Below, in pieces: positions 10,963 to 27,920 of a stretch of 64,000 nt of DNA (position 1 is its first letter; each line of letters starts with the position of its first letter). The DNA is taken from positions 62,001 through 126,000 of the forward strand of contig NZ_MSDO01000017.1 in NCBI RefSeq assembly GCF_001937195.1, in the 5' to 3' direction. The notes below the pieces were generated by a model, which did not search any database, was not told where the DNA came from, and was given only the letters and a program-made list of their open reading frames with translations. The stretch comes from Salinicola socius (GTDB lineage Bacteria > Pseudomonadota > Gammaproteobacteria > Pseudomonadales > Halomonadaceae). The position numbers and the translations under genes are program-made.

Positions 10963-11424
10963 CTACTCCTCGACGACGTCGCCATCGAGATGCATCAAAA
11001 GCTCGTCGATATCTGGAAAGAATGGCTCGATGACGGACTGACCGGATCTCAGTGGCCCGAGACGAACCCACAGGAACTGCCAGAAAACCAGACCATAACG
11101 CCCCATATAGTGACCGACTCTCGACTGCCGTGGAACACTTTCGCCATTCGCGAGCTGTCGAGCCAGGAACGGGACAATGAGTTCCTGGAGTCGCTCGAAG
11201 ACCTCCATATCGCTCGGGGCCTCTACCCTCAACCCCGGCAAAGCCGGCACCAACGCTTCCCAGTGCTTTCGAGACGATCCCGCCGGTCTGATTACCACAT
11301 CGAAAAAGAACTCTTGCATACGGGTTCGCAACGCCTCCGGGTGGTCGGGACTCACCGCAGATTGATGGCGGCGCCCCATCGCATTTTGCGAGACGCTCGA
11401 CCTAGCGATTGGAAGAAGATCCAT
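10963..11424 (-). CDS. hypothetical protein, unrecognised
   Basis: A minus-strand frame of about 153 residues from the ATG at 11424 (an open frame extends to 11475). The C-terminal part has plausible protein character: a hydrophobic/aromatic stretch MGRYGLVFWQFLWVRLG followed by an acidic tail FFPDIDELLMHLDGDVVEE. I recognise no family. No clear ribosome site precedes any ATG. It sits between the Crp-type regulator and the tRNA-Ala terminator on the same strand. The opposing 146-codon plus-strand frame (10990-11430) has a less protein-like composition. Real but lowly conserved, or spurious, are both possible. Confidence 0.45.
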   Translation of the reverse strand: MDLLPIARSSVSQNAMGRRHQSAVSPDHPEALRTRMQEFFFDVVIRPAGSSRKHWEALVPALPGLRVEAPSDMEVFERLQELIVPFLARQLANGESVPRQSRVGHYMGRYGLVFWQFLWVRLGPLRSGQSVIEPFFPDIDELLMHLDGDVVEE

Positions 11425-11554
11425 CGATAGACAGGCTAATTCGTTTCCACAACCGCAATGCCTCGACCTGCACATGACCCAGGCGCCAGAATTCCGGCCA
11501 TTCCAATGATCCGATTTGATCGAATGACGAAAAAGCAGTCAGTGCGCGGATACG

Positions 11555-11591
11555 AAAAAGCCGCTGGGTGCATTGCGCACCAGCGGCTTTT
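11555..11591 (-). terminator. intrinsic terminator after tRNA-Ala
   Basis: AAAAGCCGCTGG and its complement CCAGCGGCTTTT form a 12-bp stem around a GC-rich loop. Read on the minus strand it ends in TTTTT. It lies 13 bases beyond the tRNA 3' end. Confidence 0.85.
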
Positions 11592-11604
11592 CGAAAAGTA
11601 TTCT

Positions 11605-11680
11605 TGGTGGAGCCTAGCGGGATCGAACCGCTGACCTCAACACTGCCAGTGTTGCGCTCTCCCAGCTGAGCTAAGGCCCC
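11605..11680 (-). tRNA. tRNA-Ala(GGC)
   Basis: The 76-base cloverleaf on the minus strand starts GGGGCCT and ends AGGCTCC-A-CCA, with the CCA encoded. The anticodon stem CAACA/TGTTG encloses loop CTGGCAG, anticodon GGC. The T-arm GGTTCGATCC is canonical. It has its own promoter and terminator. Confidence 0.96.
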
Positions 11681-11710
11681 ATACCACTGCTGCCCCGAAG
11701 GACGCGAGGC

Positions 11711-11739
11711 ACTATAAGGGCCATCCAGGTCGAGGTCAA
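11711..11739 (-). promoter_or_regulatory. sigma-70 promoter of tRNA-Ala
   Basis: TTGACC (11739-11734), a 17-base spacer, then TATAGT (11716-11711), placed about 30 bases upstream of the tRNA 5' end. The downstream discriminator is GC-rich, as in stringently controlled stable-RNA promoters. Confidence 0.8.
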
Positions 11740-12113
11740 CCCCGGATCGCCGCTTCACCAAACCCGCCGCAATCCCTCGACTCGCGCAGTTGCCACGTGC
11801 AAATTTGGCCTTCGAACAGGGAGTATTTGGCCGGGGAACATGGCACACTTCATGATGGCTAGTAGTTGCACTAGCAGACTCGAGCCAGATCATCATTGAT
11901 ATAGATATAAGATGTCGTTATCGATGTAGGCTATTGGTATGGACGCAAGGACGTTGATGTGGATATCGGTGAGTTGAGCCACTGAACAGGCGCGCAGCCC
12001 GACCCATGGCGTACGGCCGATACGTAGAGCGGCCGGAGCGTTATATCGCACCCTTTTACCGGTCCATCGGTTGTCGTCGAAGTTTCAAGGGCAGCAGGAA
12101 TCCAGGAGTTATC
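11740..12113. other. non-coding gap between tRNA-Ala and uvrY
   Basis: About 370 bases with no supported gene. Frames reaching into it have no ribosome sites or family features. The 3' part carries AT-richer, repetitive GATATAGATATAAGATGTC-like sequence near 11895-11915 and presumably holds the uvrY promoter, which I could not place convincingly. Confidence 0.5.
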
Positions 12114-12761
12114 TTGATCAGGGTATTAGTAGCCGACGATCACCATCTGGTGCGCACGAGCATTGCTCGCGTATTGGCCAATGAGCCTGATATCGAGGTC
12201 GTTGCCGAAGCCGAGAGCGGAGAAATGGCGCTTCAGGGCTGCCGCGATCACGTGCCGGACATCGCGATGATCGATATCCGCATGCCGGGTATCGGGGGCC
12301 TCGAGACGATTTTCAAGCTGCTCAAGAACCAACCTGCCGTCCGAATCATCGTGCTTACGGGGCAGGTCGAGGAAGGCACCGCACAACGGCTGATCGATTC
12401 CGGCGTGACCGGGTTCATCAGCAAGGGGACCGAGCTGGATCTGATGATAGACGCGGTGCGACAGGTAGCAAGTGGCAAGCGGTTCATCAGCCCCGATATC
12501 GCGCAACGCGTCGTTCTGGCACGCAGCGAAGGCCGATGCAGTCCATTCGATCAGCTCTCGCACCGCGAGCTGCAGATCGCGACGATGATCATTCACTGCC
12601 ACAAGGTGAGTCACATATCGGAACAACTCAACCTCAGCCCCAAGACAGTAAATACCTATCGTTACCGGATATTCGACAAACTGCAGGTGCAGTCCGACGT
12701 GGAGCTGACGCACCTCGGTCTGCGGCATGGTCTGCTGGACGGCTTTGAACCTCAGACATAG
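12114..12761 (+). CDS. uvrY: GacA/UvrY response regulator
   Basis: A 215-residue NarL/FixJ-type regulator, partner of the BarA/GacS kinase, which activates the RsmY/Z-type sRNAs that titrate CsrA/RsmA. The receiver domain has the acidic pair D8/D9, phospho-acceptor D54 in AMIDIRMPG and the lysine in ISKGTE near 104. The C-terminal LuxR-type HTH is LSHRELQIATMII to SPKTVNTYRYRIFDKL. The start is a TTG (MIRVLVADDHH) with AGGAG five bases upstream, matching the usual N-terminus; longer upstream frames are not supported. Followed by uvrC and pgsA in the order known from E. coli. Confidence 0.95.
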   Translation: MIRVLVADDHHLVRTSIARVLANEPDIEVVAEAESGEMALQGCRDHVPDIAMIDIRMPGIGGLETIFKLLKNQPAVRIIVLTGQVEEGTAQRLIDSGVTGFISKGTELDLMIDAVRQVASGKRFISPDIAQRVVLARSEGRCSPFDQLSHRELQIATMIIHCHKVSHISEQLNLSPKTVNTYRYRIFDKLQVQSDVELTHLGLRHGLLDGFEPQT

Positions 12762-12829: not shown

Positions 12830-14671
12830 ATGAGCGAACCCTCGATCGATACCCCACTACGTTTCGACGCCAAGCACTTCCTGAAGTCGGTCTCGGAGTC
12901 GCCGGGCGTGTACCGCATGCTCGATCAGCACGCCAACGTTCTCTACGTCGGCAAGGCGAAACGCCTCAAGCCGCGACTGGCCAGCTACTTTCGTGGCGCG
13001 CTGAACACCAAGACCCAGGCACTGGTTGCCCGCATTCAGGATATCCAGGTCACGATCACGCGCAGCGAAACCGAGGCCCTGCTTCTCGAGCAGACCTTGA
13101 TCAAGGAGCTGCGACCGCCTTACAACATCCTGCTGCGCGACGACAAATCCTATCCCTATGTCTTCGTCACCGATCGCCATTCGTATCCGGCGCTCGAGTT
13201 CAAGCGCGTTCGACAGAAGCGGCGAGATGGTCGATATCTTGGCCCCTACCCGAGCTCTACCGCGGTTCGCGAAAGCCTCTCGTTGATGCAGAAGATCTTT
13301 CGCATCCGCAACTGCGAAGACAGCGTGTTCGCGCATCGCCATCGTCCATGCCTGCAGTACCAGATCAAGCGCTGCAGCGCGCCCTGCGTCGACTACATCA
13401 GCGAAGCCGATTACCGGCAGGATATCGAGCACGCCGTGATGTGTCTGGAGGGCCGCAGCGAGCAGGTCACGCAGCAGCTCACGGCCAGCATGGAGCAGGC
13501 AAGCGATGCGCTCGACTTCGAGGAAGCCGCCCGACTGCGCGACCAGGTCCAGCAGTTGCGGCGCTTGCAGGAGAGGCAGTACGTCGACAATGCCGATGGC
13601 GATGCCGATATCTTCGCACTGGCAGAGCAGCCGGGCGGGCTCTGCATCAGCGTGCTGGCCATTCGCCAGGGTCGCATGCTGGGCGCACGGCACCATCAGC
13701 CTGACAACGGCCTGGATCTTGCCGCCGAAGAACTGCTCGGCGAGTTCGTCAGCCAGTTCTACCTCGGCCAGTCCCAGGAGATCCCGCTCGAGATCATCGC
13801 CTCGCATTCGCTGACCGACAGAGAATTGCTGCAGGAGGCGTTGAGCGAACATGCCGGCCGCCGGATCCGGGTGGCCTCTCAGGTGCGGGGGCATCGCGCT
13901 CAATGGCGCCGTCTGGCCATCACCAATGCCGAGCAGCATCTGGCCACCCAGCTCGCCAATCGCAGTCAGCTGGGCAAGCGTTTCGAATCGCTGCGAGACG
14001 CTCTGGACATGTCGGCTCCCCCTGCCCGGCTCGAGTGTTTCGACATCAGCCACAGCCACGGCGAAGCCACGGTGGCCTCCTGTGTCGTGTTCGACCACAA
14101 TGGCCCGGCCAAATCCGACTATCGGCGTTTCAATATCGAGGGCGTCGCGGCGGGCGATGACTACGCGGCGATGCGCCAAGCCTTGACACGACGTTTCAAG
14201 CGACTTCAGAAGGGTGAAGGCAAACTACCTGACATTCTGATCGTCGATGGCGGCAAGGGTCAGTTGAACATGGCCCGGGAAGTCCTCGTCGAACTGGAGG
14301 TCGTCGGTGTCGCGCTTATCGGCGTCGCCAAAGGCACTACGCGCAAGGCCGGCCTGGAAACGCTGTTCATCGAGACCGTGGATCGCACCCTCAATCTCGA
14401 TACCGGTTCGCCGGCGCTGCATCTGATCCAGCACATCCGCGACGAAGCCCACCGCTTCGCGATCACCGGCCACCGTCAACGGCGGGACAAACAACGTCGC
14501 ACCTCCACGCTCCAGGATATTCCTGGCGTCGGACCGAAACGTCGGCGAGAACTGTTACGCTTCTTCGGTGGTCTCCAGGGCGTGCGCAAGGCAACCAGAG
14601 ACGATCTATCACGCGTTCCCGGGATCAATGAACAGATGGCAGCTACCATTCATCAGGCGCTCCATGGATGA
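12830..14671 (+). CDS. uvrC: UvrABC excinuclease subunit C
   Basis: Makes the 3' and 5' incisions in nucleotide excision repair with UvrB. The 613-residue protein has a GIY-YIG nuclease domain (PGVYRMLDQHANVLYVGKAK near residues 25-45), a UvrB-interacting UVR segment (DFEEAARLRDQVQQL near 225), the RNase H-like endonuclease domain and a tandem helix-hairpin-helix tail (IPGVGPKRRRELLRFFGG, then VPGINEQMAATI). Full family length. Lies 68 bases after uvrY; the cluster is ancient and conserved in gammaproteobacteria. Confidence 0.98.
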   Translation: MSEPSIDTPLRFDAKHFLKSVSESPGVYRMLDQHANVLYVGKAKRLKPRLASYFRGALNTKTQALVARIQDIQVTITRSETEALLLEQTLIKELRPPYNILLRDDKSYPYVFVTDRHSYPALEFKRVRQKRRDGRYLGPYPSSTAVRESLSLMQKIFRIRNCEDSVFAHRHRPCLQYQIKRCSAPCVDYISEADYRQDIEHAVMCLEGRSEQVTQQLTASMEQASDALDFEEAARLRDQVQQLRRLQERQYVDNADGDADIFALAEQPGGLCISVLAIRQGRMLGARHHQPDNGLDLAAEELLGEFVSQFYLGQSQEIPLEIIASHSLTDRELLQEALSEHAGRRIRVASQVRGHRAQWRRLAITNAEQHLATQLANRSQLGKRFESLRDALDMSAPPARLECFDISHSHGEATVASCVVFDHNGPAKSDYRRFNIEGVAAGDDYAAMRQALTRRFKRLQKGEGKLPDILIVDGGKGQLNMAREVLVELEVVGVALIGVAKGTTRKAGLETLFIETVDRTLNLDTGSPALHLIQHIRDEAHRFAITGHRQRRDKQRRTSTLQDIPGVGPKRRRELLRFFGGLQGVRKATRDDLSRVPGINEQMAATIHQALHG

Positions 14672-15344: not shown

Positions 15345-15419
15345 GCGGGAATAGCTCAGTGGTAGAGCATCGCCTTGCCAAGGCGAGGGTCGGGAGTTCG
15401 AATCTCCTTTCCCGCTCCA
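15345..15419 (+). tRNA. tRNA-Gly(GCC)
   Basis: Acceptor stem GCGGGAA/TTCCCGC with discriminator T and encoded CCA. Anticodon loop TTGCCAA gives GCC. First of three tRNAs in the order Gly-Cys-Leu, the same as glyW-cysT-leuZ downstream of pgsA in E. coli. Confidence 0.97.
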
Positions 15420-15579
15420 GACACACAGTGTAATGAATTGGTCACGAGGGTCGTGAGCTGGAACGCCAGCCCGGTCGATCTTCTTTCCTGCTCAGGAACA
15501 CAAATTTCGATTTTACTGAATTGACGCAGATGGCACTGGCAAAACCAGGTCCAGCGGCAGTTTTGGCCAATCGATGAAA

Positions 15580-15653
15580 GGCTGGATGGCAGAGTGGTTA
15601 TGCAGCGGACTGCAACTCCGTGTACGCCGGTTCGATTCCGACTCCAGCCTCCA
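15580..15653 (+). tRNA. tRNA-Cys(GCA)
   Basis: Acceptor stem GGCTGGA/TCCAGCC with discriminator T and encoded CCA. Anticodon loop CTGCAAC gives GCA. The 74-base gene lies 160 bases after tRNA-Gly. Confidence 0.97.
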
Positions 15654-15756
15654 CTTCTTCTTTGCATCGAATCCCCGTGATTCGGTCGCTTCTTTCAGGT
15701 CAACCGGCGCCTTGTTGATCAAAAAGGTTATCGGATAGATTGACCGGATACTGTCG

Positions 15757-15843
15757 GCCCGGATGGCGAAATCGGTAGACGCAAGGGATTTAAAATCCCT
15801 CGACCTTTAGGTCGTGTCGGTTCAAGTCCGACTCCGGGCACCA
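15757..15843 (+). tRNA. tRNA-Leu(UAA)
   Basis: An 87-base class II tRNA with acceptor GCCCGGA/TCCGGGC, discriminator A and CCA. Anticodon loop TTTAAAA gives UAA. The long variable arm is CGACCTTTAGGTCG. Last gene of the tRNA cluster. Confidence 0.97.
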
Positions 15844-17383: not shown

Positions 17384-17439
17384 CTGGAAGCCATGTACTG
17401 GAAACCATGTACTGGAAACCATGTGCTAGAAACCAGTAG
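17384..17439. repeat. 14-bp tandem repeat, four units
   Basis: Four head-to-tail copies of about CTGGAAACCATGTA, the first and last degenerate. It sits between dusA and the converging deacylase gene; the last unit covers the stop codon and final codons of the deacylase. Confidence 0.85.
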
Positions 17440-18448
17440 TCTCGTAGCGGGACTGAAAGCTCTCCACGGCATTCTCGACATCGTCGATCTCCTGATAGCG
17501 AGCGACATGAAATAGCGCCTCGCCCTCGTTGACCAGCGGCAGATTGCTCATGCCGATGACGATACCGTCGGCACTCGCGACCACCGGCGCCTCGGCGTTG
17601 CCGAACGGATCGGCGACCACGCCCAGCGACTGATGCTTGGCGACCCGCGCGCCCAGTCTGACGCGTGGTCTCAGAATGCCGTCGATCGGTGCCCGCGCCC
17701 AGCTGGAACCGTTGGCGATTTCCGCCGGCGGCGGGGACCGTCTTCGGCTGTCGGCCGGCAGCATGCCGATCAGGCGCATCACACGCCGAATTCCTCTCAC
17801 CCCCGGCGCGATCGCCCATTCGTCGAACCTCAGCGCCTCGCCTGCCTCGTAGGTCAGCACCGGCACGCCGCGATTCTGGGCGTATTCGCGCAGGCTGCCT
17901 TCACGCAACTCGGCATTCAGAATTACCGGCACCCCGAACGCTTCCGCCATGGCCTGGGTTTCGAGATTCTGGCGCAGTTGAGAGCGGATCTGCGGCAGAT
18001 TGGTACGATGAATCGCCCCCGTGTGCAGATCGATGATGTGCGTGGCCCGATCGACCATCTCCTCGCGCATCAGCGCGGCGATTCGCGAGCCGAGCGACCC
18101 GCCCTCGCTGCCCGGAAAGCAGCGGTTGAGATCACGCCGGTCAGGCAGGTAGCGGGACTGCTGCACGAAACCGAAGACATTGACGACAGGAACGGCGATG
18201 AGCGTTCCCCGAAGCCGCGAGAGGTTGGGCAACCTCAGCAGTCGACGGACGATCTCGACCCCGTTGAGCTCGTCCCCGTGGATCGCGCCGCAGACCAGCA
18301 GCACCGGGCCAGGCTGGCGCCCATGAACCACCTCGACCGGTATGTGCATTGGCGCGTGGGTGTAGAGTTTGGCGACCGGAACATCGACCTGGCGACGAGT
18401 GCCGGGCTCGATTCGCTCGCCGACGAGCGTGAAAGCGTCCTGCGCCAT
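17426..18448 (-). CDS. M14 family succinylglutamate desuccinylase/aspartoacylase-like protein
   Basis: Zinc-dependent deacylase fold of 340 residues. Zinc ligands are visible as H57 and E60 in GAIHGDE and H142 in IDLHTGA; the general base is E201 in TYEAGE. The C-terminal 85 residues form the beta-rich domain typical of the AstE/ASPA superfamily. Being far from any ast operon, it is not the arginine-pathway AstE. Homologues of this length are annotated only as succinylglutamate desuccinylase/aspartoacylase family; the substrate is unknown. The C-terminus (SRYETTGF) runs into the 14-bp tandem repeat, so its last residues may have been altered by repeat expansion. Confidence 0.85.
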   Translation of the reverse strand: MAQDAFTLVGERIEPGTRRQVDVPVAKLYTHAPMHIPVEVVHGRQPGPVLLVCGAIHGDELNGVEIVRRLLRLPNLSRLRGTLIAVPVVNVFGFVQQSRYLPDRRDLNRCFPGSEGGSLGSRIAALMREEMVDRATHIIDLHTGAIHRTNLPQIRSQLRQNLETQAMAEAFGVPVILNAELREGSLREYAQNRGVPVLTYEAGEALRFDEWAIAPGVRGIRRVMRLIGMLPADSRRRSPPPAEIANGSSWARAPIDGILRPRVRLGARVAKHQSLGVVADPFGNAEAPVVASADGIVIGMSNLPLVNEGEALFHVARYQEIDDVENAVESFQSRYETTGF

Positions 18449-18511: not shown

Positions 18512-19123
18512 TCAAGGCGAGCCATCTTGCTCCAAGGCTTCCAGTTCGAAGATCAGGGTGACGTGATCGCCGACCATGCCGTTGCCGACGCCGTAATCCA
18601 TTCCCCAGTCGCTGCGGTCGAGTGCCCCACGCACCGACAGACCCAAGGTGGGGCGTCCATGCCCGAACGGATAGACCTCGTCCTTGTTCAGCGTGACATC
18701 CAGCGTTACCGGCTCGGTGCGCCCCAGCATGGTGAGTTCCCCGTTCAGCGTACCGGTAGTCGAGGAGGACGGTTCGAAGTCGGTTGCCACGAAATGCAGC
18801 CGTGGATGATCCTCGGCATCCAGAAAATCGCCACCGCGAACGTGGTGATCACGGGCATCGAGGTTGGTGAAGACGCTAGCGGCCTGAATCGTGACATCGG
18901 CCTCGCTCAGCGTCTGCGTCTCGCGGTCGTAAACGAAACTGCCCTCGCCTTTCAGAAACTGCCCCAGCAGATTTTCGTAACCCATATGATCCACCATGAA
19001 AGCGATGGTGAAATGGTCGGGATCGATCTCGAAGCGTTTCGGTTCGGCTTGTGCCGTCGATATCGCCCCCGACACGATCAGTGCCAGAGTGGCGGCGAAT
19101 ACAGGCAAGCGTACTGGTCTCAT
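18512..19123 (-). CDS. YceI family periplasmic lipid-binding-like protein
   Basis: A 203-residue secreted protein. It has a Sec signal peptide (MRPVRLPVFAATLALIVSGA, cleavage after AQA near residue 26) and a lipocalin-like beta-barrel of the YceI family (FEIDPDHFTIAFMVDHMGY, later LTMLGRTEPVTLDV). The family binds polyisoprenoid-type lipids. The ATG at 19123 is chosen for the perfect AAGGAGG just upstream. It lies 72 bases downstream of a CDP-alcohol phosphatidyltransferase on the same strand; the pair is probably an operon and may belong with the pterin/flavin-like cluster. Confidence 0.9.
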   Translation of the reverse strand: MRPVRLPVFAATLALIVSGAISTAQAEPKRFEIDPDHFTIAFMVDHMGYENLLGQFLKGEGSFVYDRETQTLSEADVTIQAASVFTNLDARDHHVRGGDFLDAEDHPRLHFVATDFEPSSSTTGTLNGELTMLGRTEPVTLDVTLNKDEVYPFGHGRPTLGLSVRGALDRSDWGMDYGVGNGMVGDHVTLIFELEALEQDGSP

Positions 19124-19195
19124 GAAGACCTCCTTGTGTTGGGCGCCAATTCGAGAACGGATCGCGGGTGGCAGAGATGTCAAAGCCGAGAAGGG

Positions 19196-19957
19196 TCAGA
19201 ACCCGGTGTCGTCGACCGGGCGACGACGCCAGAGCCAGACGATGTCCCGCCCGAAGGAGAGCAGCAACAGCGCCGCCGCGAGCAACGCAAAACCGGTCGC
19301 CCAAGCCGATGAGACGAAGGGCAGCAGGCAGACCATCAACGTCGCGACCTGCCAGACGCACACCGTCTTGCGGAAGTAGCTCTCGGGCAGGGTTCGATTG
19401 AGCCAGGGCGAGTACATCCCTGCGATCACGAACGCATAGCGAACCAGCCCGAGAGCCAGTATCCAGGCGCCAACCTTGTCCAGGGCGATCAGCGCGGTGC
19501 ACAGCACGACGATAAAAAACGCATCCAGCTCCATGTCGAAGCGCGCCCCGAAAGCGCTCGCGGAGCCGGTCCGACGTGCCACCCATCCGTCGATTCCGTC
19601 CAGCGACAGCGCCAACAGCGATAGCGCAGCGATGCCCTCGGCGTGACGCTGAATGAAATCCGGATAGACCGCCACGCCGGCGACGATCGCAATCAGCGTG
19701 GCGCGCAGCAGCGTGATGCGATTGGCCCAGCCCAGGCCCTGGCGCGACGCGGGCCACGCCCAGAGCACGGCCGTGGCGATCGCCACATAGACCCCGCCAG
19801 CCGTGAAACGCAGACCCGAAGGTGCGGAAAACGCCCACTGTACCCACTCGGCCAGCAGAGCCACCAGCGCCAGCCCCGCTGCCAGTTCTGCCCAGCCGCG
19901 AATGGATCGGGATCGCCGGGAAGGCGCGGCCGGCATACGCGCCGATGAATGTCGCAT
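19196..19957 (-). CDS. CDP-alcohol phosphatidyltransferase family membrane protein
   Basis: A 253-residue membrane protein with about six hydrophobic segments and the signature DGIDGWVARR followed by GARFDMELD, which coordinates metal and CDP-alcohol. The acidic positions D-x2-D-G-x2-A-R and D-x3-D are intact, so transferase activity is expected. The acceptor alcohol is unknown: it is clearly not PgsA (present at 14.7 kb), and the extended N-terminal membrane region differs from PgsA and PssA. The start at 19957 has GGGAGG 8 bases upstream. Divergent from the dehydrogenase at 20397, sharing its 439-base promoter region. Confidence 0.87.
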   Translation of the reverse strand: MRHSSARMPAAPSRRSRSIRGWAELAAGLALVALLAEWVQWAFSAPSGLRFTAGGVYVAIATAVLWAWPASRQGLGWANRITLLRATLIAIVAGVAVYPDFIQRHAEGIAALSLLALSLDGIDGWVARRTGSASAFGARFDMELDAFFIVVLCTALIALDKVGAWILALGLVRYAFVIAGMYSPWLNRTLPESYFRKTVCVWQVATLMVCLLPFVSSAWATGFALLAAALLLLSFGRDIVWLWRRRPVDDTGF

Positions 19958-20396
19958 CGTCGAATCCTCCCACCATGGTCGTCGTCCCATCCGCCGTCCG
20001 CCTGTCGCTCGGGCTGCGATGGTCAAAGTCCATTACGCATCTCGTACAAGTCTGGATGCACGCTGGCCAGTTTGCGAGAACCGTTCACTCGTCAGCGCTC
20101 AACGTTCAGTGCCACCGATGACGACCCCCGTCACGTGGCTGGCGAGCTTCGGTCCTCTGACGTTGGACCTCGGCCAAGACCTTCGGCCTTCCCGAAGTCG
20201 TCACCGGTCCGCGGCACGTCTCGAGCTGACTGATTCCTGTTTTTCGATCTTGACCTGTACATGATCTGTACAATGCTAGATCATCATACTCTGCCATACT
20301 TCCTCTCACGGCAGCACTTCGATTCGGCGCAACCTCTCCATTCGCCGCAACAGCGAGCCGGCCATCCAGATCTGCAATCGAGGAGCGGATATCTCA
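19958..20396. other. 439-base divergent intergenic region
   Basis: Separates the minus-strand phosphatidyltransferase/yceI pair from the plus-strand dehydrogenase operon. Frames within it lack supporting features. It contains a candidate promoter with an internal dyad (20250-20279), leaving a leader of about 110 bases before 20397. Confidence 0.5.
20250..20279 (+). promoter_or_regulatory. candidate promoter with TGTACA-N5-TGTACA dyad between -35 and -10
   Basis: TTGACC (20250-20255) and a weak TGCTAG (20274-20279) flank a spacer of 18. The spacer is filled by two TGTACA palindromes (20256-20261 and 20267-20272) separated by TGATC. A dyad lying between -35 and -10 is the geometry used by MerR-family regulators. 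The regulator is not identified. Confidence 0.45.
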
Positions 20397-21368
20397 ATGA
20401 CGACGCCTTACGCCCACGCTTTCTGGTCTCTCGGCGACGGCACCGGCGAAATTCGCCAGGCCGAGTTGAGTGTCAGCGGCGATCTCAGGGTGCGAACCTG
20501 CTATTCCGCCATCAGTCGTGGCAGCGAAACTCTGGTCTTCAATGGTCAGGTACCGATCAGCGAATATCAGCGAATGCGCGCGCCGTTTCAGAGCGGCGAC
20601 TTCCCGGGCCCGGTCAAGTACGGCTACTCCAACGTGGGCGTCGTCGAACAGGGCGCACATGACTGGCACGGCCGATACGTCTACTGCCTTCATCCGCATC
20701 AGACCCATTATCGCGTGACCGTCGACGACGTCGTTCCACTCCCGCCGGATGTACCACCGCAGCGCGCCGTTCTCGGGGCCAACATGGAAACGGCGCTCAA
20801 CGCGCTTTGGGACGCCGCCCCCGGCATCGGCGACCGTATCAGCGTGGTCGGGGCCGGCGTGGTCGGGGCCCTGGTCGCATGGCTCTGTGCCCGGCTACCC
20901 GGCGCCCACGTTCAGCTGATCGATATCGACGAGCGCAAGCGCTTCCTCGGCGACGCGCTGGGCGTCGACTTCCATACCCCGCAGACCGCCGCAGACGAGC
21001 AGGATCTGGTCATCCACGCCAGCGCCTCGAATGATGGCCTGCAGACCGCCCTCTCGCTGGCGGGATTCGAAGCGACCGTTCTCGAGATGAGCTGGTACGG
21101 CAGTCGCGAGGTCAATCTGCCGCTCGGTGAAGCATTTCACGCGCGTCGCCTGACGTTGCGGTCGAGCCAGGTCGGCAGCGTCTCTCCCGGTCATCGCCCC
21201 CGCTGGGATCACAAGCGGCGTCTTTCTCTGGCGCTATCGCTGCTCAATCACGACTGCCTGGACGTGCTGATCAGCGGTGAAAGCCATTTCAGAGACTTGC
21301 CCGAAACGCTGAAGCGACTGAGTCAGCGCGAAGACGATACCCTGTGCCAACGCATCCACTATGGCTGA
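20397..21368 (+). CDS. short MDR-type (zinc-binding dehydrogenase-like) oxidoreductase
   Basis: A 323-residue medium-chain dehydrogenase/reductase fold. The N-terminal GroES-like domain includes CYSAISRGSET near residue 35 and GYSNVGVVEQG near 77. The Rossmann domain has VVGAGVVGALVAWLCA near 140 and an acidic end of the second strand (LIDIDE), suggesting NAD+. The structural four-cysteine zinc lobe of classical alcohol dehydrogenases is missing, so it resembles BchC-type or quinone-reductase-like members. The substrate is unknown. It is the first gene of a plus-strand run: dehydrogenase, PTPS-like, glycosyltransferase, methyltransferase, flippase-like, of which the last four overlap at their stops and starts. 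Confidence 0.85.
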   Translation: MTTPYAHAFWSLGDGTGEIRQAELSVSGDLRVRTCYSAISRGSETLVFNGQVPISEYQRMRAPFQSGDFPGPVKYGYSNVGVVEQGAHDWHGRYVYCLHPHQTHYRVTVDDVVPLPPDVPPQRAVLGANMETALNALWDAAPGIGDRISVVGAGVVGALVAWLCARLPGAHVQLIDIDERKRFLGDALGVDFHTPQTAADEQDLVIHASASNDGLQTALSLAGFEATVLEMSWYGSREVNLPLGEAFHARRLTLRSSQVGSVSPGHRPRWDHKRRLSLALSLLNHDCLDVLISGESHFRDLPETLKRLSQREDDTLCQRIHYG

Positions 21369-21472
21369 TACCGCGTAAAGCCATTGAACTCGTCGCCGTA
21401 GTGCATCAGCGATTCAGTGGCTGGATCGAACGAATCATGCAACGAGGACGCACTCGTCAAGGAGCGACAACA

Positions 21473-21871
21473 ATGTTCAGTTTGACCGTCCGCGATCACA
21501 TGATGATCGCCCACAGTTTCAACAGCGAAACCTTCGGCCCGGCGCAGAAACTGCACGGTGCCACCTACGTCGTCGACGTCACTTTCAAGCGTCCCGAGCT
21601 GGACCCCGACGATCTGGTGGTCGATATCGGTCTGGCGAGCGAGGTTCTGAAACGCATTCTCGGCGAGTTCACCTTGAACAATCTCGACGAGATCGACGAG
21701 TTCAAGGGTCGCAACACCACGACCGAATTCATGGCCAGGGTCGTGTTCGACCGTCTGTCCCATGCCATCCGCGATGGCGAGCTGGGCGATGGCGCTCGCC
21801 ATCTCACCGCGCTGGCCGTCACGTTGCATGAGTCGCACGTCGCCTGGGCAAGCTATGAAGGGGGCCTATGA
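21473..21871 (+). CDS. 6-pyruvoyl-tetrahydropterin synthase/QueD-like protein with degenerate active site
   Basis: A 132-residue T-fold protein related to PTPS and QueD. The fold landmarks align: MIAHSF (H14), KLHGATYVVDV (H28), LVVDIG and LHESH (E120). Against E. coli QueD, the catalytic cysteine position is A24, the third zinc ligand of the HGH motif is A30 (HGA), and the LDHHYLND segment reads LGEFTLNN, losing the catalytic histidine. Only two of three zinc ligands remain, so ordinary QueD/PTPS chemistry is unlikely. The ATG at 21473 has AAGGAG 8 bases upstream; an open frame further upstream is not needed. The stop overlaps the glycosyltransferase start by ATGA. Confidence 0.85.
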   Translation: MFSLTVRDHMMIAHSFNSETFGPAQKLHGATYVVDVTFKRPELDPDDLVVDIGLASEVLKRILGEFTLNNLDEIDEFKGRNTTTEFMARVVFDRLSHAIRDGELGDGARHLTALAVTLHESHVAWASYEGGL

Positions 21872-22932
21872 GCGATTTCACCCTGATCGTCGCCGGCGAT
21901 CCTGGTCAGCTGACCGGCGGCTACGTCTACGACGCCCGTATCGTCGAGACGCTGCGCAACGGCGGCTGGAAGATCGATGTCGTCGGAGTCGACGGCCGCT
22001 TCCCCGAGCCGGATGCCGTCGCATCGCACGCCCTGGATAGCGCCCTGACCGCGCTGCCGGATGGCAGTCAGGCGGTGATCGACGGGCTCGCGATGGGCGG
22101 ACTGCCGGCGATCGTCGAGCGTCACGCCTCGCGACTGTCGATCACGGCGCTGATACATCATCCGCTCGCCGACGAAACCGGCCTGGGTGCGCCCGAGCAG
22201 CAGCGCTTTCGGATCAGCGAAACCCGCGCTCTGGCTGCCGCCGGCAACGTCATCGTCACCAGTGTCTACACCGCCCGCCGACTGGCCGATTTCGATGTGC
22301 CGGCGGAAAAGATAGCCGTCATCGAACCGGGGGTGGAAACCGGAGAGCTGGCGAGCGGCGACGGCAGCGGAACTCCACGGCTTCTGTGTATCGCCACGGT
22401 CACGCCGCGCAAGGGCCAGGATCTGCTGGTCGAAGCGCTGGCCGGCCTGACTGCGCTGTCATGGCAGTGCGATCTGATCGGCGCGCTCGATCGTGCCGAG
22501 GCTTATGTCGACAAGGTGCGAGAGGCGATCGACGGGCATCAGTTGGGCGAGCGCATCCATCTGCTCGGCGCCCAAACCCGTGAAAGCCTGGCCGCCCATT
22601 ATCGACAGGCCGATCTGTTCGTGCTGCCCTCGCATTACGAGGGTTACGGCATGGTGATTACCGAAGCCCTCGCCCACGGTCTCCCTGTCGTGACCACGTC
22701 CGGCGGCGCCCTGGCTCACACCTTGCCGGATGCTGCCGGTATCAAGGTGCCCCCGGGGGATGTGACGGCGCTTCGCGACGCCCTGAAGCGGATGCTGGAG
22801 GAACCGGAAACCCGCCAACGCTATTGCCAGGGTGCCCGAGAGATTCGCGATAGGCTCGGCAACTGGCAAACCGCCGCCGAGGCGTTCGGCGAGGCAATGA
22901 AACGTGCCAGGTCGACGGGAGCGATGCGCTGA
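21868..22932 (+). CDS. GT4 family glycosyltransferase
   Basis: A 354-residue GT-B glycosyltransferase. The C-terminal nucleotide-sugar domain carries the GT4 motif EGYGMVITEALAHG (the EX7E pair near residues 258 and 266) after LPSHY, and TVTPRKGQDLLVEAL near 180 matches the domain start. The N-terminal acceptor domain (GDPGQLTGGYVYDARIVETL) has the usual glycine-rich loop. Retaining transfer of a sugar is expected; donor and acceptor are unknown. Start and stop overlap the PTPS-like gene and the methyltransferase gene (TGATG), implying translational coupling. Confidence 0.9.
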   Translation: MSDFTLIVAGDPGQLTGGYVYDARIVETLRNGGWKIDVVGVDGRFPEPDAVASHALDSALTALPDGSQAVIDGLAMGGLPAIVERHASRLSITALIHHPLADETGLGAPEQQRFRISETRALAAAGNVIVTSVYTARRLADFDVPAEKIAVIEPGVETGELASGDGSGTPRLLCIATVTPRKGQDLLVEALAGLTALSWQCDLIGALDRAEAYVDKVREAIDGHQLGERIHLLGAQTRESLAAHYRQADLFVLPSHYEGYGMVITEALAHGLPVVTTSGGALAHTLPDAAGIKVPPGDVTALRDALKRMLEEPETRQRYCQGAREIRDRLGNWQTAAEAFGEAMKRARSTGAMR

Positions 22933-23837
22933 TGTCGATGCCGCCGTCCGCCGACGCCCTGTTCAGCGATCAATGGCTGACCTTGCGCGAGCCCGCCGAC
23001 CATCGGGCCAGGGATGCCCAGCTCACCCATGCCGCCGATCGCTGGCTCTCGCGACGTGCCACGCCGGTCCGCGCGCTGGAGATCCAGCGCACGCTGGTGG
23101 ACCTGGGATGCGGCAGCGGCTCGAATCTGCGCTATCTGGCGCCGCGGCTCCACGGCGCCCAGCATTGGCGCCTGATCGATCACGACGCTGAACTGCTGGC
23201 TCACGCGAGGCTGCGCTGCGAGCCGCTCGTCAGCGCCGACGGTCAGCCGATCCACCTCGAGACCCGGGAACTGAGTCTGGTGGATGCCTGGAAACACGGT
23301 CTTCAGGGCGCCGATCTGGTCACGGCCTCGGCACTGTTCGATCTGCTGACGACCGCGGACGCCGACGCGTTGGCCGAGACTTGCCATATCAACAATTGCG
23401 CGGTGCTGTTCGCGCTCAGCGTCGATGGCCATATTCGCTTTCATGACGCCAGCGGTGCCCCGTTGTTCAGTGATGACGACCAGTTCATGCTGGCCGCGCT
23501 GGAAGCGCATCAACGCCGCGACAAGGGCAGTGGCTCGGCCATGGGCACGCAAGCGCCACGCCATCTTCGCGAGAGTCTTCACCGCCGCGGCTATCACGTC
23601 CGTGAAGCCACTTCGCCCTGGCGTCTCGGGCCTGAATCCCTGCCGCTGGCTGAAGCCCTGCTGGCCGGCTGGCGCAGCGCGCTGGACGAACAGTTGCCGC
23701 AGCAGAGCCGTCGCATCGAGCGCTGGCATACCCAGCGTCTCGAGGGGCTGATGCGCGAACAGCTGACATTGACCGTCGGACACCGCGACCTGTTCGCCAC
23801 ACCGCCGGAAAGCGACGGCGTGGGAGCGCCAGCGTGA
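22932..23837 (+). CDS. class I SAM-dependent methyltransferase
   Basis: A 301-residue Rossmann-fold methyltransferase. Motif I is LVDLGCGSGSNLRYL near residue 55, with the acidic end of strand 2 in WRLIDHDAELL. The substrate is unknown; no nucleic-acid-type NPPY motif is visible. The start overlaps the glycosyltransferase stop and its own stop overlaps the next gene, so it is part of the coupled run. The C-terminal region (residues 210-300) is helical and poorly recognisable. Confidence 0.85.
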   Translation: MSMPPSADALFSDQWLTLREPADHRARDAQLTHAADRWLSRRATPVRALEIQRTLVDLGCGSGSNLRYLAPRLHGAQHWRLIDHDAELLAHARLRCEPLVSADGQPIHLETRELSLVDAWKHGLQGADLVTASALFDLLTTADADALAETCHINNCAVLFALSVDGHIRFHDASGAPLFSDDDQFMLAALEAHQRRDKGSGSAMGTQAPRHLRESLHRRGYHVREATSPWRLGPESLPLAEALLAGWRSALDEQLPQQSRRIERWHTQRLEGLMREQLTLTVGHRDLFATPPESDGVGAPA

Positions 23838-24847
23838 ACCGCTGGCTCTTGCCCGCCCTGCGCCTGGCGTTCACGCTGGCGCTATTGGGCGTACTCGCCT
23901 GGCAGCTGGATACTCGACAGCTGCTGGATCGGCTCGGCGACCTGTCGCCGGGCTGGGTCGTCGTGGCCGTACTGATCGGCGTTCCCCAGGTCGTACTCTC
24001 GGCCTGGCGCTGGCGGATGACGGCGCATCAGGTCGGCATCGGGTTGCCGTGGCCCACCGCCATCCGCGAATACTACCTGGCGACATTCCTGAATCAGATC
24101 CTGCCGGGTGGCGTCGTGGGCGATGCCGCCCGGGCCTGGCGCCACGGCAACACGCAAACGCCGTCCGAAACCGCGACCTCATCGACGTCCGGCCCGGCGA
24201 TCCGTGCCGTCATCATCGAACGCGCCTCCGGCCAGATCGCGCTGCTGCTGGTTGCAGCTGTCGCCGTCGTTCTCTCGCCGGCGCTACGCAGGGCCATCAT
24301 CGACTCGTGGCAGGCGCATGGCACGACCGGGCCATGGATCCTGCTGGCGGCGCTGCTGCTGGGCGGCGGCATCCTGACAGGGCTGAAACGGCGGCCCTGG
24401 CCGGCCCTGGCCACGTTCGGCCATGACGTCAAGCGCGCCCTGCTGGCGGTTTCGGTGTGGCCGGCACAGTTGTTCAGCTCGCTGCTGGTCATCGCCACCT
24501 ATGTCGCGGTCTTTCTCTGCGCCGCCCAGGCGCTGGGACTGCAACGACCGCTCCCGGAGTTGCTGCCACTGATTCCGCCGCTGCTGATGGCGATGGCGGT
24601 TCCACTGACGATCGCCGGCTGGGGACTGCGCGAAGGCGCCGCCGCCCTGATCTGGCCGCTGGCCGGCCTTCCCGCGCAAGAGGGCGTGGCGCTGTCCGTG
24701 ACTTATGGCCTGCTGATCCTTGCCGCCAGCCTTCCGGGATTGGCGGTGCTTCTGCGGGAGACCCGGATCCGTCGAGGAGCGCCCGGGTCAGCGACAATGC
24801 CGACCCCGGCTCGAGAAAAAGCCGCCACGGGAGGGCATTGCGGATGA
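23834..24847 (+). CDS. lysylphosphatidylglycerol synthase TM-region/flippase-like membrane protein (UPF0104)
   Basis: A 337-residue integral membrane protein with about eight hydrophobic segments. The signature region is YYLATFLNQILPGGVVGDAAR near residues 80-100, typical of the MprF membrane domain and UPF0104 proteins. There is no aminoacyl-transferase domain, so it would act as a lipid or glycolipid translocase rather than a lysyl-PG synthase. Last gene of the coupled plus-strand run. It converges on the RibD-like gene, with only two bases between the stops. Confidence 0.87.
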   Translation: MNRWLLPALRLAFTLALLGVLAWQLDTRQLLDRLGDLSPGWVVVAVLIGVPQVVLSAWRWRMTAHQVGIGLPWPTAIREYYLATFLNQILPGGVVGDAARAWRHGNTQTPSETATSSTSGPAIRAVIIERASGQIALLLVAAVAVVLSPALRRAIIDSWQAHGTTGPWILLAALLLGGGILTGLKRRPWPALATFGHDVKRALLAVSVWPAQLFSSLLVIATYVAVFLCAAQALGLQRPLPELLPLIPPLLMAMAVPLTIAGWGLREGAAALIWPLAGLPAQEGVALSVTYGLLILAASLPGLAVLLRETRIRRGAPGSATMPTPAREKAATGGHCG

Positions 24848-24849
24848 AA

Positions 24850-25749
24850 TCACGCCTCCGTCGTGTCGCGATCGAGCAGATCCAGATCGAACAGCATGTC
24901 GTCGCCCAGTCGGAAATAGCGACAGGCCGGTCGCAGCGCGCCATCCAGCGTGTCGATCTCCGGCAGCGTCAGCGACGGCCGACCGGAACCGATCAGCATC
25001 GGCGCGACAACGCTGTGCAGGCGGTCGAGACAGCCCGCCTGCAGAAAGCGCGAAATCGTGAGCCCGCCGCCCTCGATCAGAATCCGGCGATGCCCTTGTT
25101 CGGCCAGCAGCGAGATGACCTGCACGGGATCGAACCCCTCCGGCCGCGGCCTCAGCGAATGGACGCTGACGTGATCCGCACTGCCGTGACCGGCAACGCC
25201 CTCGTTGACGAGATGCCAGGTCGGTGCCGCCGGCTGGCGGAAGACACCACGTTCTACCGGCACCCGGCCTCGGGGATCGAGCACCACCCGCAGCGGGTTG
25301 TCGCCCTCGACATGACGCACGGTCAACTGCGGGTCGTCGGCAACGACCGTGCCGACGCCCACCACTACCGCATCGACCAGCGCCCGCAGCCGGTGAAGAT
25401 GAACCAGGCTCTGTGCTCCTGTGACGTAATGGGAAGCACCGCTGGCCGTCGCGATCCGGCCATCCAGACTCTGGCCGATCTGCGCGATGACGCGCGCGCC
25501 CTGGGTGACGTCCGCAATGCACCATGGCAGCCAGATCGACAGCAGTTGCGCAGCCTCCTCGTCGACCTCATGACTGCAGCGCCAGGCACCTCGGGCATCG
25601 ACATCGAGCCGAAATCCTGCGTCGATGAGGGTGCCGTCAAAAACCCCATGGCGGGTCATGCCGGCGACGCGGCGAATCCAGTTCCAGACCTGCGGAGTCT
25701 TTACGGGAGGCGGACGAGCAGAGGAAGTGCGAGTAGAAGTCATGGTCAT
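24850..25749 (-). CDS. RibD reductase-domain protein (stand-alone)
   Basis: A 299-residue protein containing only the DHFR-like reductase domain of RibD (about residues 85-295): AQIGQSLDGRIATASG, LRALVDAVVVGVGTVVADDP and ILIEGGGLTISRFL. The zinc deaminase domain of RibD is absent. The first 85 residues (WNWIRRVAGMTRHGVFDG and on) are not part of the usual domain and I do not recognise them. The family reduces the ribosyl side chain of a pyrimidine intermediate with NADPH; an analogous reaction is plausible here. It is divergent from the GTP cyclohydrolase II-like gene 155 bases away, so the two probably share a control region. Confidence 0.87.
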   Translation of the reverse strand: MTMTSTRTSSARPPPVKTPQVWNWIRRVAGMTRHGVFDGTLIDAGFRLDVDARGAWRCSHEVDEEAAQLLSIWLPWCIADVTQGARVIAQIGQSLDGRIATASGASHYVTGAQSLVHLHRLRALVDAVVVGVGTVVADDPQLTVRHVEGDNPLRVVLDPRGRVPVERGVFRQPAAPTWHLVNEGVAGHGSADHVSVHSLRPRPEGFDPVQVISLLAEQGHRRILIEGGGLTISRFLQAGCLDRLHSVVAPMLIGSGRPSLTLPEIDTLDGALRPACRYFRLGDDMLFDLDLLDRDTTEA

Positions 25750-25904
25750 TCCTTGGCCAGACGGCAGCCTAGCGTAGCAAAAATCGGCCCTTGGGCGGAG
25801 GCAGTTCGACGATCAGCGAAGCCACCGCCGGCGACACCCAATCAAGGTTATGGATGGGCATCTCGGATGAGATCGATCATGGATGACAGGATAAGGAGAA
25901 GAGC

Positions 25905-27044
25905 ATGCGACAGGTAGAACGCGCGATTTTCGATCTGCGACGCGGCCTCCCGGTTCTCGTACGCGCTGCCAGCGGCGACGTGATGGTTCACCCGCTGGAG
26001 GGTTGCGACGACGAGGCTCTGGCGGCGCTGCACGCTATCAGTGGCAACCCGCCTACCCTTGCGTTGACCCGCCATCGTCTTTCACGGCTCGACATCGAGT
26101 TCGAGCCGAGGGTCGGGCTGGTGCCGATCACGCCTGCCGACCGGGCGCAACAGGTCGTCGCCTGGGCCAGCGCCGAGCAGCAACGCTTGCCGCGGGAAAG
26201 CCGGCCGCTCGCCGCCACCAGCGGCAGCGAGGCGGCGCTGGATCTGATGCGCATCGGCCTGCTCATTCCGGCCGCGATCGTCGCCGAGGTCAGCGAGATC
26301 CAGCGCGCCAGGGTAGAGGCATTGATCGCCGACGGCACCGTGCTGGCGGTTGCCGCCGGGCAGATCGATGCCTACTCGGAAACCCGCTCGCGTTTTCTCA
26401 AACGCACCAGCGATGCGGAAATCCCGCTGTCTCACGCCGAACGCGCCAAGTTCGTGATGTTCCGGGAGGCGGACGGCATGCGCGAACACATCGCCATCGT
26501 CATCGGCGAGCCCGGCGAGTGGAACGATGCCGTCCCGGTGCGCCTGCATTCGGCCTGTCTGACCGGTGACCTCTTCGGCAGTCTGCGCTGCGACTGCGGT
26601 GAACAGCTGCGCGAGAGCGTGCGTACCATCGATGAACGCGGCGGTGGCGTACTGCTCTATCTCGCCCAGGAAGGCCGCGGTATCGGCCTGGCCAACAAGC
26701 TGCGCGCCTACACCTTGCAGGATGGCGGGCTGGACACGGTGGATGCCGATCAGGTACTCGGCTTCGGCGAGGACGAGCGCACCTACGAAGTGGCGTTGGA
26801 GATGCTCGAGCAGCTCAAGGTTACCCGCATCGAACTGCTGACCAACAACCCAGAGAAGATCGCCGCCATGGACCAGGGCGGCGTCGAAGTTGTCAACCGT
26901 CGCGGCGTCTACGGCAAGCTGACCAAGCAGAACCGGCGCTATCTGGATGCCAAGGCCAAGCGCGCCGGCCACTGGCTGGAAGAGGTGCTGAATGACGGCG
27001 AAAGCGGCCCGGCAACCTCGCTCAGGAGACCCGTGGCACGCTGA
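25905..27044 (+). CDS. GTP cyclohydrolase II-like protein with unusual N-terminal domain
   Basis: A 379-residue protein. Residues about 175-365 form a GTP cyclohydrolase II domain with zinc ligands C218, C229 and C231 (CLTGDLFGSLRCDCGEQL), catalytic Y269 and the D290/R292 pair (GEDER). One usually conserved arginine in the YLRQEGRG motif is alanine (A254, YLAQEGRG). The first 170 residues faintly resemble DHBP synthase (RibB) layout (AIFDLRRGLPVLV) but lack its DDEDRENEGD-type catalytic loop. It is therefore neither E. coli RibA (about 196 residues) nor a normal RibBA. The product would be a diaminopyrimidinone. Adjacent to a RibD-type reductase and a creatininase. Confidence 0.9.
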   Translation: MRQVERAIFDLRRGLPVLVRAASGDVMVHPLEGCDDEALAALHAISGNPPTLALTRHRLSRLDIEFEPRVGLVPITPADRAQQVVAWASAEQQRLPRESRPLAATSGSEAALDLMRIGLLIPAAIVAEVSEIQRARVEALIADGTVLAVAAGQIDAYSETRSRFLKRTSDAEIPLSHAERAKFVMFREADGMREHIAIVIGEPGEWNDAVPVRLHSACLTGDLFGSLRCDCGEQLRESVRTIDERGGGVLLYLAQEGRGIGLANKLRAYTLQDGGLDTVDADQVLGFGEDERTYEVALEMLEQLKVTRIELLTNNPEKIAAMDQGGVEVVNRRGVYGKLTKQNRRYLDAKAKRAGHWLEEVLNDGESGPATSLRRPVAR

Positions 27045-27086
27045 CGGACGCTAACCGGTCACCTGCTATCTCGTCGCGACAGACCC

Positions 27087-27106
27087 CCGGCGTCCGAAGA
27101 CGCCGG
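27087..27106. terminator. hairpin between convergent RibA-like and creatininase genes
   Basis: CCGGCGTC (27087-27094) and GACGCCGG (27099-27106) form an 8-bp perfect stem with a CGAA tetraloop, a very stable combination. Only a short TT follows, so it may act as a bidirectional terminator or RNA-end protector. Confidence 0.6.
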
Positions 27107-27110
27107 TTCG

Positions 27111-27920
27111 TCAGATCCCGTCCGGGGTCGGGCCGCGCAACGTGGCCAGATCGAAGCGCCCCGCCTCTTCAATCACCGTCGCCAGCCGCGCGCTGAAATG
27201 CTCGACCAAACGACGTCCGATATCGGCGTTGGCCAGCGCGGCATTGCCGGTGACGCCGCTGGGATGCAGGTCCTGTGCCATCCAGGCATAGCCGGCGTCG
27301 CCTTCAGGGCCCAGCGTCGCACCCGACTGTTCGCGAAGGCTTCCCTCGGAGACGGCATCGGCCAGCTGTTCGATCCGGACTTTGGCCGGCGCAAGATGCA
27401 GCATCATCGAGGTTTCCAGGGCACCGCCGTGCAAGCCGTGCCGCAACTCCTTGGCGGGCAGCGCCTGCGGCGGCGGCGCGAAGCGAAAGTAGTTGGCCTT
27501 GACCACCAGCATGGCGTGGGCCGCACGCAGCTTGAGTGCTACCAGATCGATGACCGCCTTGTTGCCCCCGTGACTGTTGAACAGCACCAGACGCCGAATG
27601 CCGGCACGATTGACGGCCTCGCCCAGCGCTTCGATCACGCGCATTGCCGTCTCCGGCATCAAGCTCAGCGTACCCGGGAAGTCGGTGTGCTCGAGACTCG
27701 AACCCAGCGCCAGCGGCGGCAGCACGATCACGTCCTGCGTCGACCCGAGCTGCGCCATGGCCGCCTCGAGCAGCCCCAGCCCGATATCCAGATCGGTTGA
27801 CAGTGGCAGATGAGACCCATGCTGCTCGATCGCCGCCAGCGGCAACACCGCCACCGTCGCGCCGCCGGCCAGTCGGGCAATCTCCGTGCTGGTCAGATCC
27901 TGCCATTGGTGGACGCTCAT
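27111..27920 (-). CDS. creatininase family amidohydrolase
   Basis: A 269-residue metal-dependent amidohydrolase. Creatininase-fold metal ligands are visible: E32, H34 and D43 (AIEQHGSHLPLSTD), H117 (NSHGGN) and E169 (HGLHGGALETS). Family members include creatinine amidohydrolase, the archaeal FAPy deformylase ArfB of riboflavin/F420 synthesis and the mycofactocin peptidase MftE. Beside the GTP cyclohydrolase II-like and RibD-like genes, a formamide or amide hydrolase acting on a GTP-derived pyrimidine is a reasonable idea but only inference. The ATG at 27920 has GGGAG 6 bases upstream and overlaps the recD stop as ATGA, so it is translated with recCBD. Confidence 0.88.
   Translation of the reverse strand: MSVHQWQDLTSTEIARLAGGATVAVLPLAAIEQHGSHLPLSTDLDIGLGLLEAAMAQLGSTQDVIVLPPLALGSSLEHTDFPGTLSLMPETAMRVIEALGEAVNRAGIRRLVLFNSHGGNKAVIDLVALKLRAAHAMLVVKANYFRFAPPPQALPAKELRHGLHGGALETSMMLHLAPAKVRIEQLADAVSEGSLREQSGATLGPEGDAGYAWMAQDLHPSGVTGNAALANADIGRRLVEHFSARLATVIEEAGRFDLATLRGPTPDGI

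Follow-up and report, generated by a model that had tools for sequence, protein, structure and literature searches.

Closest described pathways and the Salinicola locus

Early riboflavin synthesis in archaea and with the bacterial enzyme BrbF proceeds by opening of the GTP ring, deformylation of a formamidopyrimidine (FAPy) by an enzyme annotated as a creatininase, and further conversion of the 2,5-diamino-pyrimidinone ribotide (PMC9478397). We analyzed a 64,000-nucleotide stretch of Salinicola socius DNA (contig NZ_MSDO01000017.1, positions 62,001 to 126,000; here called the window), in which a block of ten genes at 18512..27920 encodes similar early enzymes. Unlike those systems, the block has no lumazine or riboflavin synthase and has a medium-chain dehydrogenase/reductase (MDR), a variant member of the PTPS (6-pyruvoyltetrahydropterin synthase) family, a GT4 glycosyltransferase, and a methyltransferase. 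We propose, with a probability of about 0.5, that the block encodes a single dedicated pathway that turns GTP into a pyrimidine or pterin carrying a sugar and a methyl group and, beside it, an envelope module that varies among lineages. That it encodes a single pathway distinct from those of riboflavin and queuosine is well supported.

The enzyme families, and metabolites based on GTP cyclohydrolase II, are already known: the pseudoiodinine and toxoflavin clusters likewise combine GTP cyclohydrolase II-like, RibD-like, and methyltransferase genes in one secondary-metabolite operon, but the seven psd genes listed in the pseudoiodinine report include no PTPS, GT4, MDR, or CDP-alcohol transferase (PMC9911603). 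The PTPS of the block belongs to the family of SCO6650 from Streptomyces coelicolor (PDB 3D7J), whose PDB name is that of an uncharacterized protein. To our knowledge, the toxoflavin cluster also lacks PTPS, GT4, MDR, and CDP-alcohol transferase genes. The proposed product resembles pterin glycosides such as cyanopterin in being a sugar-bearing pteridine; compounds of the cyanopterin type are made via GTP cyclohydrolase I, without RibA or RibD_C. In some loci, OpgG-like, OpgH-like, and sulfatase-fold genes beside the core recall the osmoregulated periplasmic glucan genes OpgG, OpgH, and OpgB, and we know of no GTP-derived module in the known periplasmic glucan pathway. No description of the cluster was found in the titles or opening abstracts of the literature searched, outside which most subscription papers lie.

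A preliminary description of this DNA had listed RibA-like, RibD, PTPS-like, creatininase, GT4, methyltransferase, flippase-like, CDP-alcohol transferase, MDR, and YceI genes. All ten are present (by Pfam; MDR by structure model), as follows.

18512..19183, minus strand: YceI-family protein, accessory (Pfam YceI, 2.3e-38)
19196..20026, minus strand: CDP-alcohol phosphatidyltransferase family membrane enzyme, envelope module (Pfam CDP-OH_P_transf, 1.7e-15)
20397..21368, plus strand: BchC-like dehydrogenase with an MDR fold that lacks the usual GHE zinc motif, core (synteny and fold)
21473..21871, plus strand: variant PTPS of the SCO6650/3D7J family, core (Pfam PTPS, 1.2e-23; PDB 3D7J, 1.1e-59)
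21868..22932, plus strand: GT4 glycosyltransferase, core (Pfam, 1.2e-31)
22932..23837, plus strand: class I S-adenosylmethionine-dependent methyltransferase, core (Pfam, 4.8e-7)
23834..24847, plus strand: flippase-like LPG_synthase_TM membrane protein, envelope module (Pfam, 3.3e-37)
24850..25749, minus strand: stand-alone RibD_C reductase, core or precursor step (Pfam RibD_C, 1.3e-38)
25905..27044, plus strand: GTP cyclohydrolase II-like (RibA-like) protein, precursor step (Pfam GTP_cyclohydro2, 6.7e-57)
27111..27920, minus strand: creatininase-family amidohydrolase, proposed FAPy formamidase, precursor step (Pfam, 2.2e-64)

Four plus-strand genes had been said to overlap stop to start, and the three junctions concerned are real: PTPS/GT4 (21868-21871), GT4/methyltransferase (22932), and methyltransferase/LPG_synthase_TM (23834-23837). 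The PTPS gene most likely starts at 21473 and not at 21344, because the alignments of its relatives begin at that Met; among the matches listed, its closest named relative is from Salinicola halophyticus (98 percent). The creatininase ATG at 27920 shares a 4-base overlap with the end of recD. Scans for promoters and terminators gave no signal above shuffled sequences, and Rfam over 12000-34500 returned nothing beyond three tRNAs. These tRNA genes lie at 15345-15840, between pgsA-like and dus-like genes.

Conservation of the block as a unit

With PTPS as the search query, a collection holding one genome per species yielded at least 579 confirmed PTPS relatives, of which 80 loci, skewed toward Halomonadaceae and their kin, were kept for neighborhood counts. 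To these we added 16 distant regions, picked for distance among 27 phylum-sample hits (the 11 omitted belong to the same order as the window). Of 11 actinomycete-phylum hits, 9 were also added (the omitted two being the genome of locus L105 itself and one on a contig outside the set analyzed). Several loci are truncated by contig ends. By record title, the 80 loci span gamma-, beta-, and alphaproteobacteria, actinomycetes, Gemmatimonadota, and Acidobacteria (i.e., four phyla), the last two represented only by metagenome-assembled genomes (MAGs).

In every one of the 105 loci, MDR immediately precedes PTPS and is encoded on the same strand. GT4 is found in 104 and begins no more than 600 bases from the PTPS end in 101; it lies upstream in L127 and L130, starts 729 bases on in L150, and is absent from L133. 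Among the 80 loci, MDR, PTPS (the query), and GT4 each occur in 80, followed by methyltransferase (76), CDP-alcohol transferase (73), RibD_C (67), the flippase-like gene (65), RibA (52), creatininase (47), and YceI (29). The distant regions carry MDR in 16, GT4 in 15, methyltransferase in 14, RibD_C in 13, and RibA in 7 cases, and all nine actinomycete-phylum regions carry MDR and GT4. In 26 of the 80 loci, GT4 and methyltransferase are fused into a single open reading frame. Deep-branching RibD_C-MDR-PTPS-GT4 strings are present in two actinomycete-phylum genomes, and the one scanned with Pfam (L151) ends in a 641-residue GT4-methyltransferase fusion.

Presence and divergence follow the same lines. 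PTPS occurs in 30 of 58 related genomes, and a strong MDR match (E ≤ 3e-100) occurs in exactly those 30, the next-best MDR match anywhere in the 58 being 2e-7. For the cluster RibD_C, 29 of the 30 PTPS genomes have a strong match (E ≤ 2.5e-68) and none of the other 28 does (best there, 6.5e-27); in the sole exception the contig stops about 2.5 kb past PTPS. Over distant pairs, which are not mutually independent, divergence is correlated with that of MDR for GT4 (Spearman, 0.53), PTPS (0.52), RibA (0.50), and methyltransferase (0.45); CDP-alcohol transferase, RibD_C, creatininase, and the flippase-like gene follow at 0.31 to 0.36. PTPS was present in 27 of the 398 genomes sampled from the window's phylum and in 11 of the 296 sampled from the actinomycete phylum; it is thus widespread but patchy.

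The preliminary description had made its proposal depend on co-occurrence of the genes in other genomes; the set is syntenic across phyla, and the idea survived. Chance grouping was rejected, given that the block recurs in four phyla and that the flanking genes are confined almost wholly to Halomonadaceae-type loci. Among the 80 loci, these flanks are dus (14), recD (13), AstE (12), uvrC (8), and pgsA (7), and by record title every locus that carries one is of Halomonadaceae type, with a single exception, a uvrC gene of Marinobacter (locus L071). The AstE-like gene (17426-18448) and recD were excluded from the block because only Halomonadaceae-type loci share them.

Some loci depart from the usual arrangement. 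A Halomonas-like copy of the block lies on a 5.2-kb contig (L067) assigned to a Natrialbaceae archaeon MAG; the archaeal label is probably a binning error. In genome G013, noted together with locus L095 (Salinicola tamaricis), the MDR, PTPS, and RibD_C matches are split or contain a stop, which reflects decay or sequencing indels; RibA and creatininase frames are also shortened in Halomonas sulfidaeris (L085). A protein that looks by eye like cytochrome b561 lies between methyltransferase and RibD_C in two distant regions, L136 (12228-12779) and L138 (11915-12535), with both sets of coordinates in reversed orientation. In the distant actinomycete-phylum locus L150, the MDR-PTPS-GT4 string is followed by AlkZ-like DNA glycosylase and PAP2 genes (11370-12590 and 13184-14014).

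Core enzymes

We take the catalytic residues of PTPS and QueD to be a Cys and an Asp-His pair, with three His residues binding zinc and a Glu anchoring the pterin. Compared with the PTPS structure 2g64, the protein of the block has Ala in place of the catalytic Cys, has the Asp-His pair replaced, and reads HGA for HGH, with loss of one zinc His. Because these residues are lost, the PTPS fold appears to be repurposed. Its motif, FGPAQ..HGAT, is nearly invariant (FGPAQ and HGA each in 95 of 96 sequences), and ESH, which bears the putative pterin-anchoring Glu, is kept in 92 of 96. The match to a PTPS structure in the PDB is 1.4e-5. Two deep-branching copies retain HGH and are already without the Cys.

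The MDR protein is weakly recognized by sequence: NAD_binding_8 scored below its cut-off, and BchC scored 33.8 bits against a cut-off of 291. Its structure model (mean predicted local distance difference test [pLDDT] score, 88) has the MDR fold, with L-idonate 5-dehydrogenase as the best structural match and polyol dehydrogenases among the best. GHE, presumably the zinc motif of zinc-dependent MDR alcohol dehydrogenases, was found in 1 of 96 proteins, and KYGY in 85 of 96. Pfam was run on two members: the window protein had no ADH domain match and the distant L151 protein had one. The methyltransferase model (mean pLDDT, 91) resembles only varied methyltransferases, at low TM-scores; in L127, a Methyltransf_11 protein stands beside GT4 in place of the cluster-type enzyme. 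Outside the core, what we take to be the family motif of the CDP-alcohol transferase is complete in 75 of 75 aligned sequences.

Precursor genes

The RibA-like protein of the window retains equivalents of the three zinc Cys, Tyr105, Asp126, and Arg128 (E. coli numbering), which we take to be functional residues of E. coli GTP cyclohydrolase II. About 160 extra residues precede its GTP cyclohydrolase II domain (window 25905-26400), and most actinomycete forms (217 to 264 residues) are without this N-terminal extra domain. Co-occurrence of RibA and creatininase was scored on the 75 of 96 loci that are at least 18 kb long: both genes were present in 40, neither in 23, RibA alone in 10, and creatininase alone in 2 (Fisher, 1.5e-9, with kinship ignored). 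The two genes thus mostly come and go together. The creatininase motifs EQHG.HLP (44 of 48 aligned sequences) and HGG..ET (45 of 48), presumably the metal-site motifs of the family, are conserved.

Residue 105 divides the actinomycete loci. Where RibA has Met or Gln instead of Tyr105, creatininase is in the locus in 8 of 8 cases (L061, L105, L113, L144, L145, L146, L148, and L149); where Tyr105 is present, it is there in 0 of 6 (L097, L098, L106, L107, L111, and L147). L109, one of nine actinomycete loci among the 80, ends at 12.8 kb, shows no RibA, and stands outside both tallies. Beyond the locus, the L097 genome has creatininase-family genes elsewhere and the L106 genome has none. SCO6655 of S. 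coelicolor, which we take to be a FAPy-forming GTP cyclohydrolase II, reportedly has Met in place of Tyr and stops at FAPy, in work said to be by Spoonamore in 2006. The residue 105 pattern fits a role of the creatininase as FAPy formamidase. BrbF offers a precedent for a bacterial member of the creatininase family in that role (PMC9478397).

The PDB sequences nearest to RibD_C are 6p8c (6e-25) and 2azn (3e-23), both of which carry pyrimidinone- or uracil-phosphate reductase names and rank ahead of RibD (3.8e-19). We take 2azn to be an archaeal reductase.

Proposed pathway

We infer the reactions of MDR, PTPS, GT4, and methyltransferase, and their order, from gene content, synteny, fusions, co-occurrence, and the catalytic residues kept or lost. 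GTP as the starting compound is supported by the intact GTP cyclohydrolase II residues and by the linkage of RibA with creatininase. The RibA-like enzyme would open the imidazole ring of GTP, and the creatininase would take off the formyl group where RibA halts at FAPy. RibD_C would then reduce the ribosyl side chain of the resulting diamino-pyrimidinone ribotide to ribityl without deamination, in the archaeal order of steps. MDR may oxidize a hydroxyl of the side chain. The variant PTPS, with a Glu presumed to hold a 2-amino-4-oxo-pyrimidine and no Cys/Asp/His triad, may bind the intermediate and shape a ring closure or cleavage that leads to a pterin-like compound. In one possible route, a ketone at ribityl C2 would close onto the 5-amino group to give a dihydropterin, a kind of intermediate that GTP cyclohydrolase I reaches by a different path. 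Glycosylation by GT4 and methylation by the methyltransferase would follow, as predicted from their families and from the fusion of the two. In this lineage, CDP-alcohol transferase, the flippase-like protein, and YceI (presumably a secreted, polyisoprenoid-binding family) might lipidate the product and handle it at the membrane; in other lineages, genes for OpgH-like GT2, OpgG, FkbM, and a sulfatase-fold protein stand next to the core.

Several observations weigh against the pathway in this form. The counts rest on related, non-independent sequences. RibA is in only 52 of the 80 loci, which qualifies the support for GTP as the start. RibA is absent from 28 loci; of 12 genomes searched from among these, two (Thioalkalivibrio) hold a cluster-type RibA elsewhere and 10 lack one altogether, so the cluster RibA is dispensable. 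In those 10 genomes the only match is to the shorter GTP cyclohydrolase II part, which points to housekeeping RibA as a possible source of the precursor where the locus has none. Creatininase accompanies 42 of 55 Tyr105 forms of RibA (49 scored and 6 by eye), and a formamidase is thus not demanded by residue 105 in these. RibD_C is absent from 7 of the 8 Tyr-less actinomycete loci, and Micromonospora-type loci have a distant form of it (81 to 98 bits versus about 230 to 380), so its step would be optional or supplied elsewhere. NCBIfam scored RibD_C higher with bacterial RibD models (139.9 and 117.8 bits) than with the archaeal one (100.9), all below cut-off. Over distant pairs, YceI (0.03) and the sulfatase-fold gene (−0.45) do not co-diverge with MDR. 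Finally, the CDP-alcohol transferase and flippase-like genes, common in the nearer loci, are each found in only 2 of the 16 distant loci and missing from 14; these two genes are therefore a lineage-specific module and not part of the core.

Alternative explanations

In one possible but unlikely alternative, the membrane genes are mere neighbors, and the product of the core is a soluble, cyanopterin-like pterin that is glycosylated and methylated. The core does persist in the distant loci that lack both membrane genes, and the deep-branching form, RibD_C-MDR-PTPS followed by GT4 and methyltransferase, is likewise without them. Against mere adjacency, CDP-alcohol transferase (73) and LPG_synthase_TM (65) accompany the core in most of the 80 nearer loci, in several phyla, and both are in 6 of the 9 actinomycete-phylum regions. 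In 2 of the 80 loci (L074 and L078), CDP-alcohol transferase and YceI are fused, and the fusion adjoins the core. MdoH (0.60) and FkbM (0.61) also co-diverge with MDR over distant pairs in the same Spearman test.

A second and more doubtful alternative is decoration of a glycan of the periplasm or cell wall: the CDP-alcohol transferase would make a special phospholipid, and the sulfatase-fold protein would transfer a phospho-linked group from it to an OpgGH-type glucan. OpgG-like (27), FkbM (25), OpgH-like GT2 (24), and sulfatase-fold membrane protein (14) genes do occur in the 80 loci, and one Gemmatimonadales MAG locus (L093) has all four beside the core. The sulfatase-fold protein keeps ESYG (14 of 16), G.SW (16 of 16), and GDH (14 of 16), which we take to be metal and nucleophile sites; neither it nor the OpgH-like protein had a PDB sequence match. 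Against this alternative, the sulfatase-fold gene does not co-diverge with MDR, and it is the only gene of this set found in the actinomycete loci examined (L098, L113, and L147). In Salinicola, two OpgG genes lie outside the block (G000:C3:56619-58076 and G000:C147:79508-80983). An OpgH-like match adjoins only the first, and no FkbM or sulfatase-fold match was found in 18 kb around each. An extension of the block to OpgGH was sought in Salinicola and not found.

The idea that the block serves as a backup source of precursors for riboflavin, folate, or queuosine is very improbable and was rejected: the RibA, RibD_C, and PTPS families all belong to those pathways, but further RibA-, RibD-, and PTPS-family genes are present on other contigs of the genome, the PTPS catalytic residues are lost, no RibB, RibH, RibE, deaminase, or Que gene was found among the block genes scanned with Pfam (as the preliminary description had noted of the normal groupings), and we know of no role of GT4 or the methyltransferase in those pathways.

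For the dedicated pathway from GTP, the envelope-gene neighbors are suggestive of a product destined for the envelope but are no proof of it. The preliminary description had gone further, to a lipid-linked product moved across the membrane. Its single pathway starting from GTP is supported; lipid linkage and membrane transfer, and equally attachment to a glycan, stay conjectural, the membrane genes being lineage-specific.

Implications

At least 579 places, counted with one genome per species, encode a relative of this PTPS, and a common metabolite may thus have been overlooked. The pathway would give a role to a solved structure, SCO6650, and perhaps to the Streptomyces GTP cyclohydrolase II that is said to stop at FAPy. 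It would also reveal a function of the PTPS fold after loss of its known catalytic residues. More tentatively, the product may be an envelope glycolipid or glycan substituent of a new class, with a GTP-derived glycosylated, methylated pyrimidine or pterin as head group, and the PTPS fold may have become a new kind of enzyme, although we consider this unlikely at present. If demonstrated, such attachment of a GTP-derived group to lipids or glycans would be a categorically new kind of envelope chemistry.

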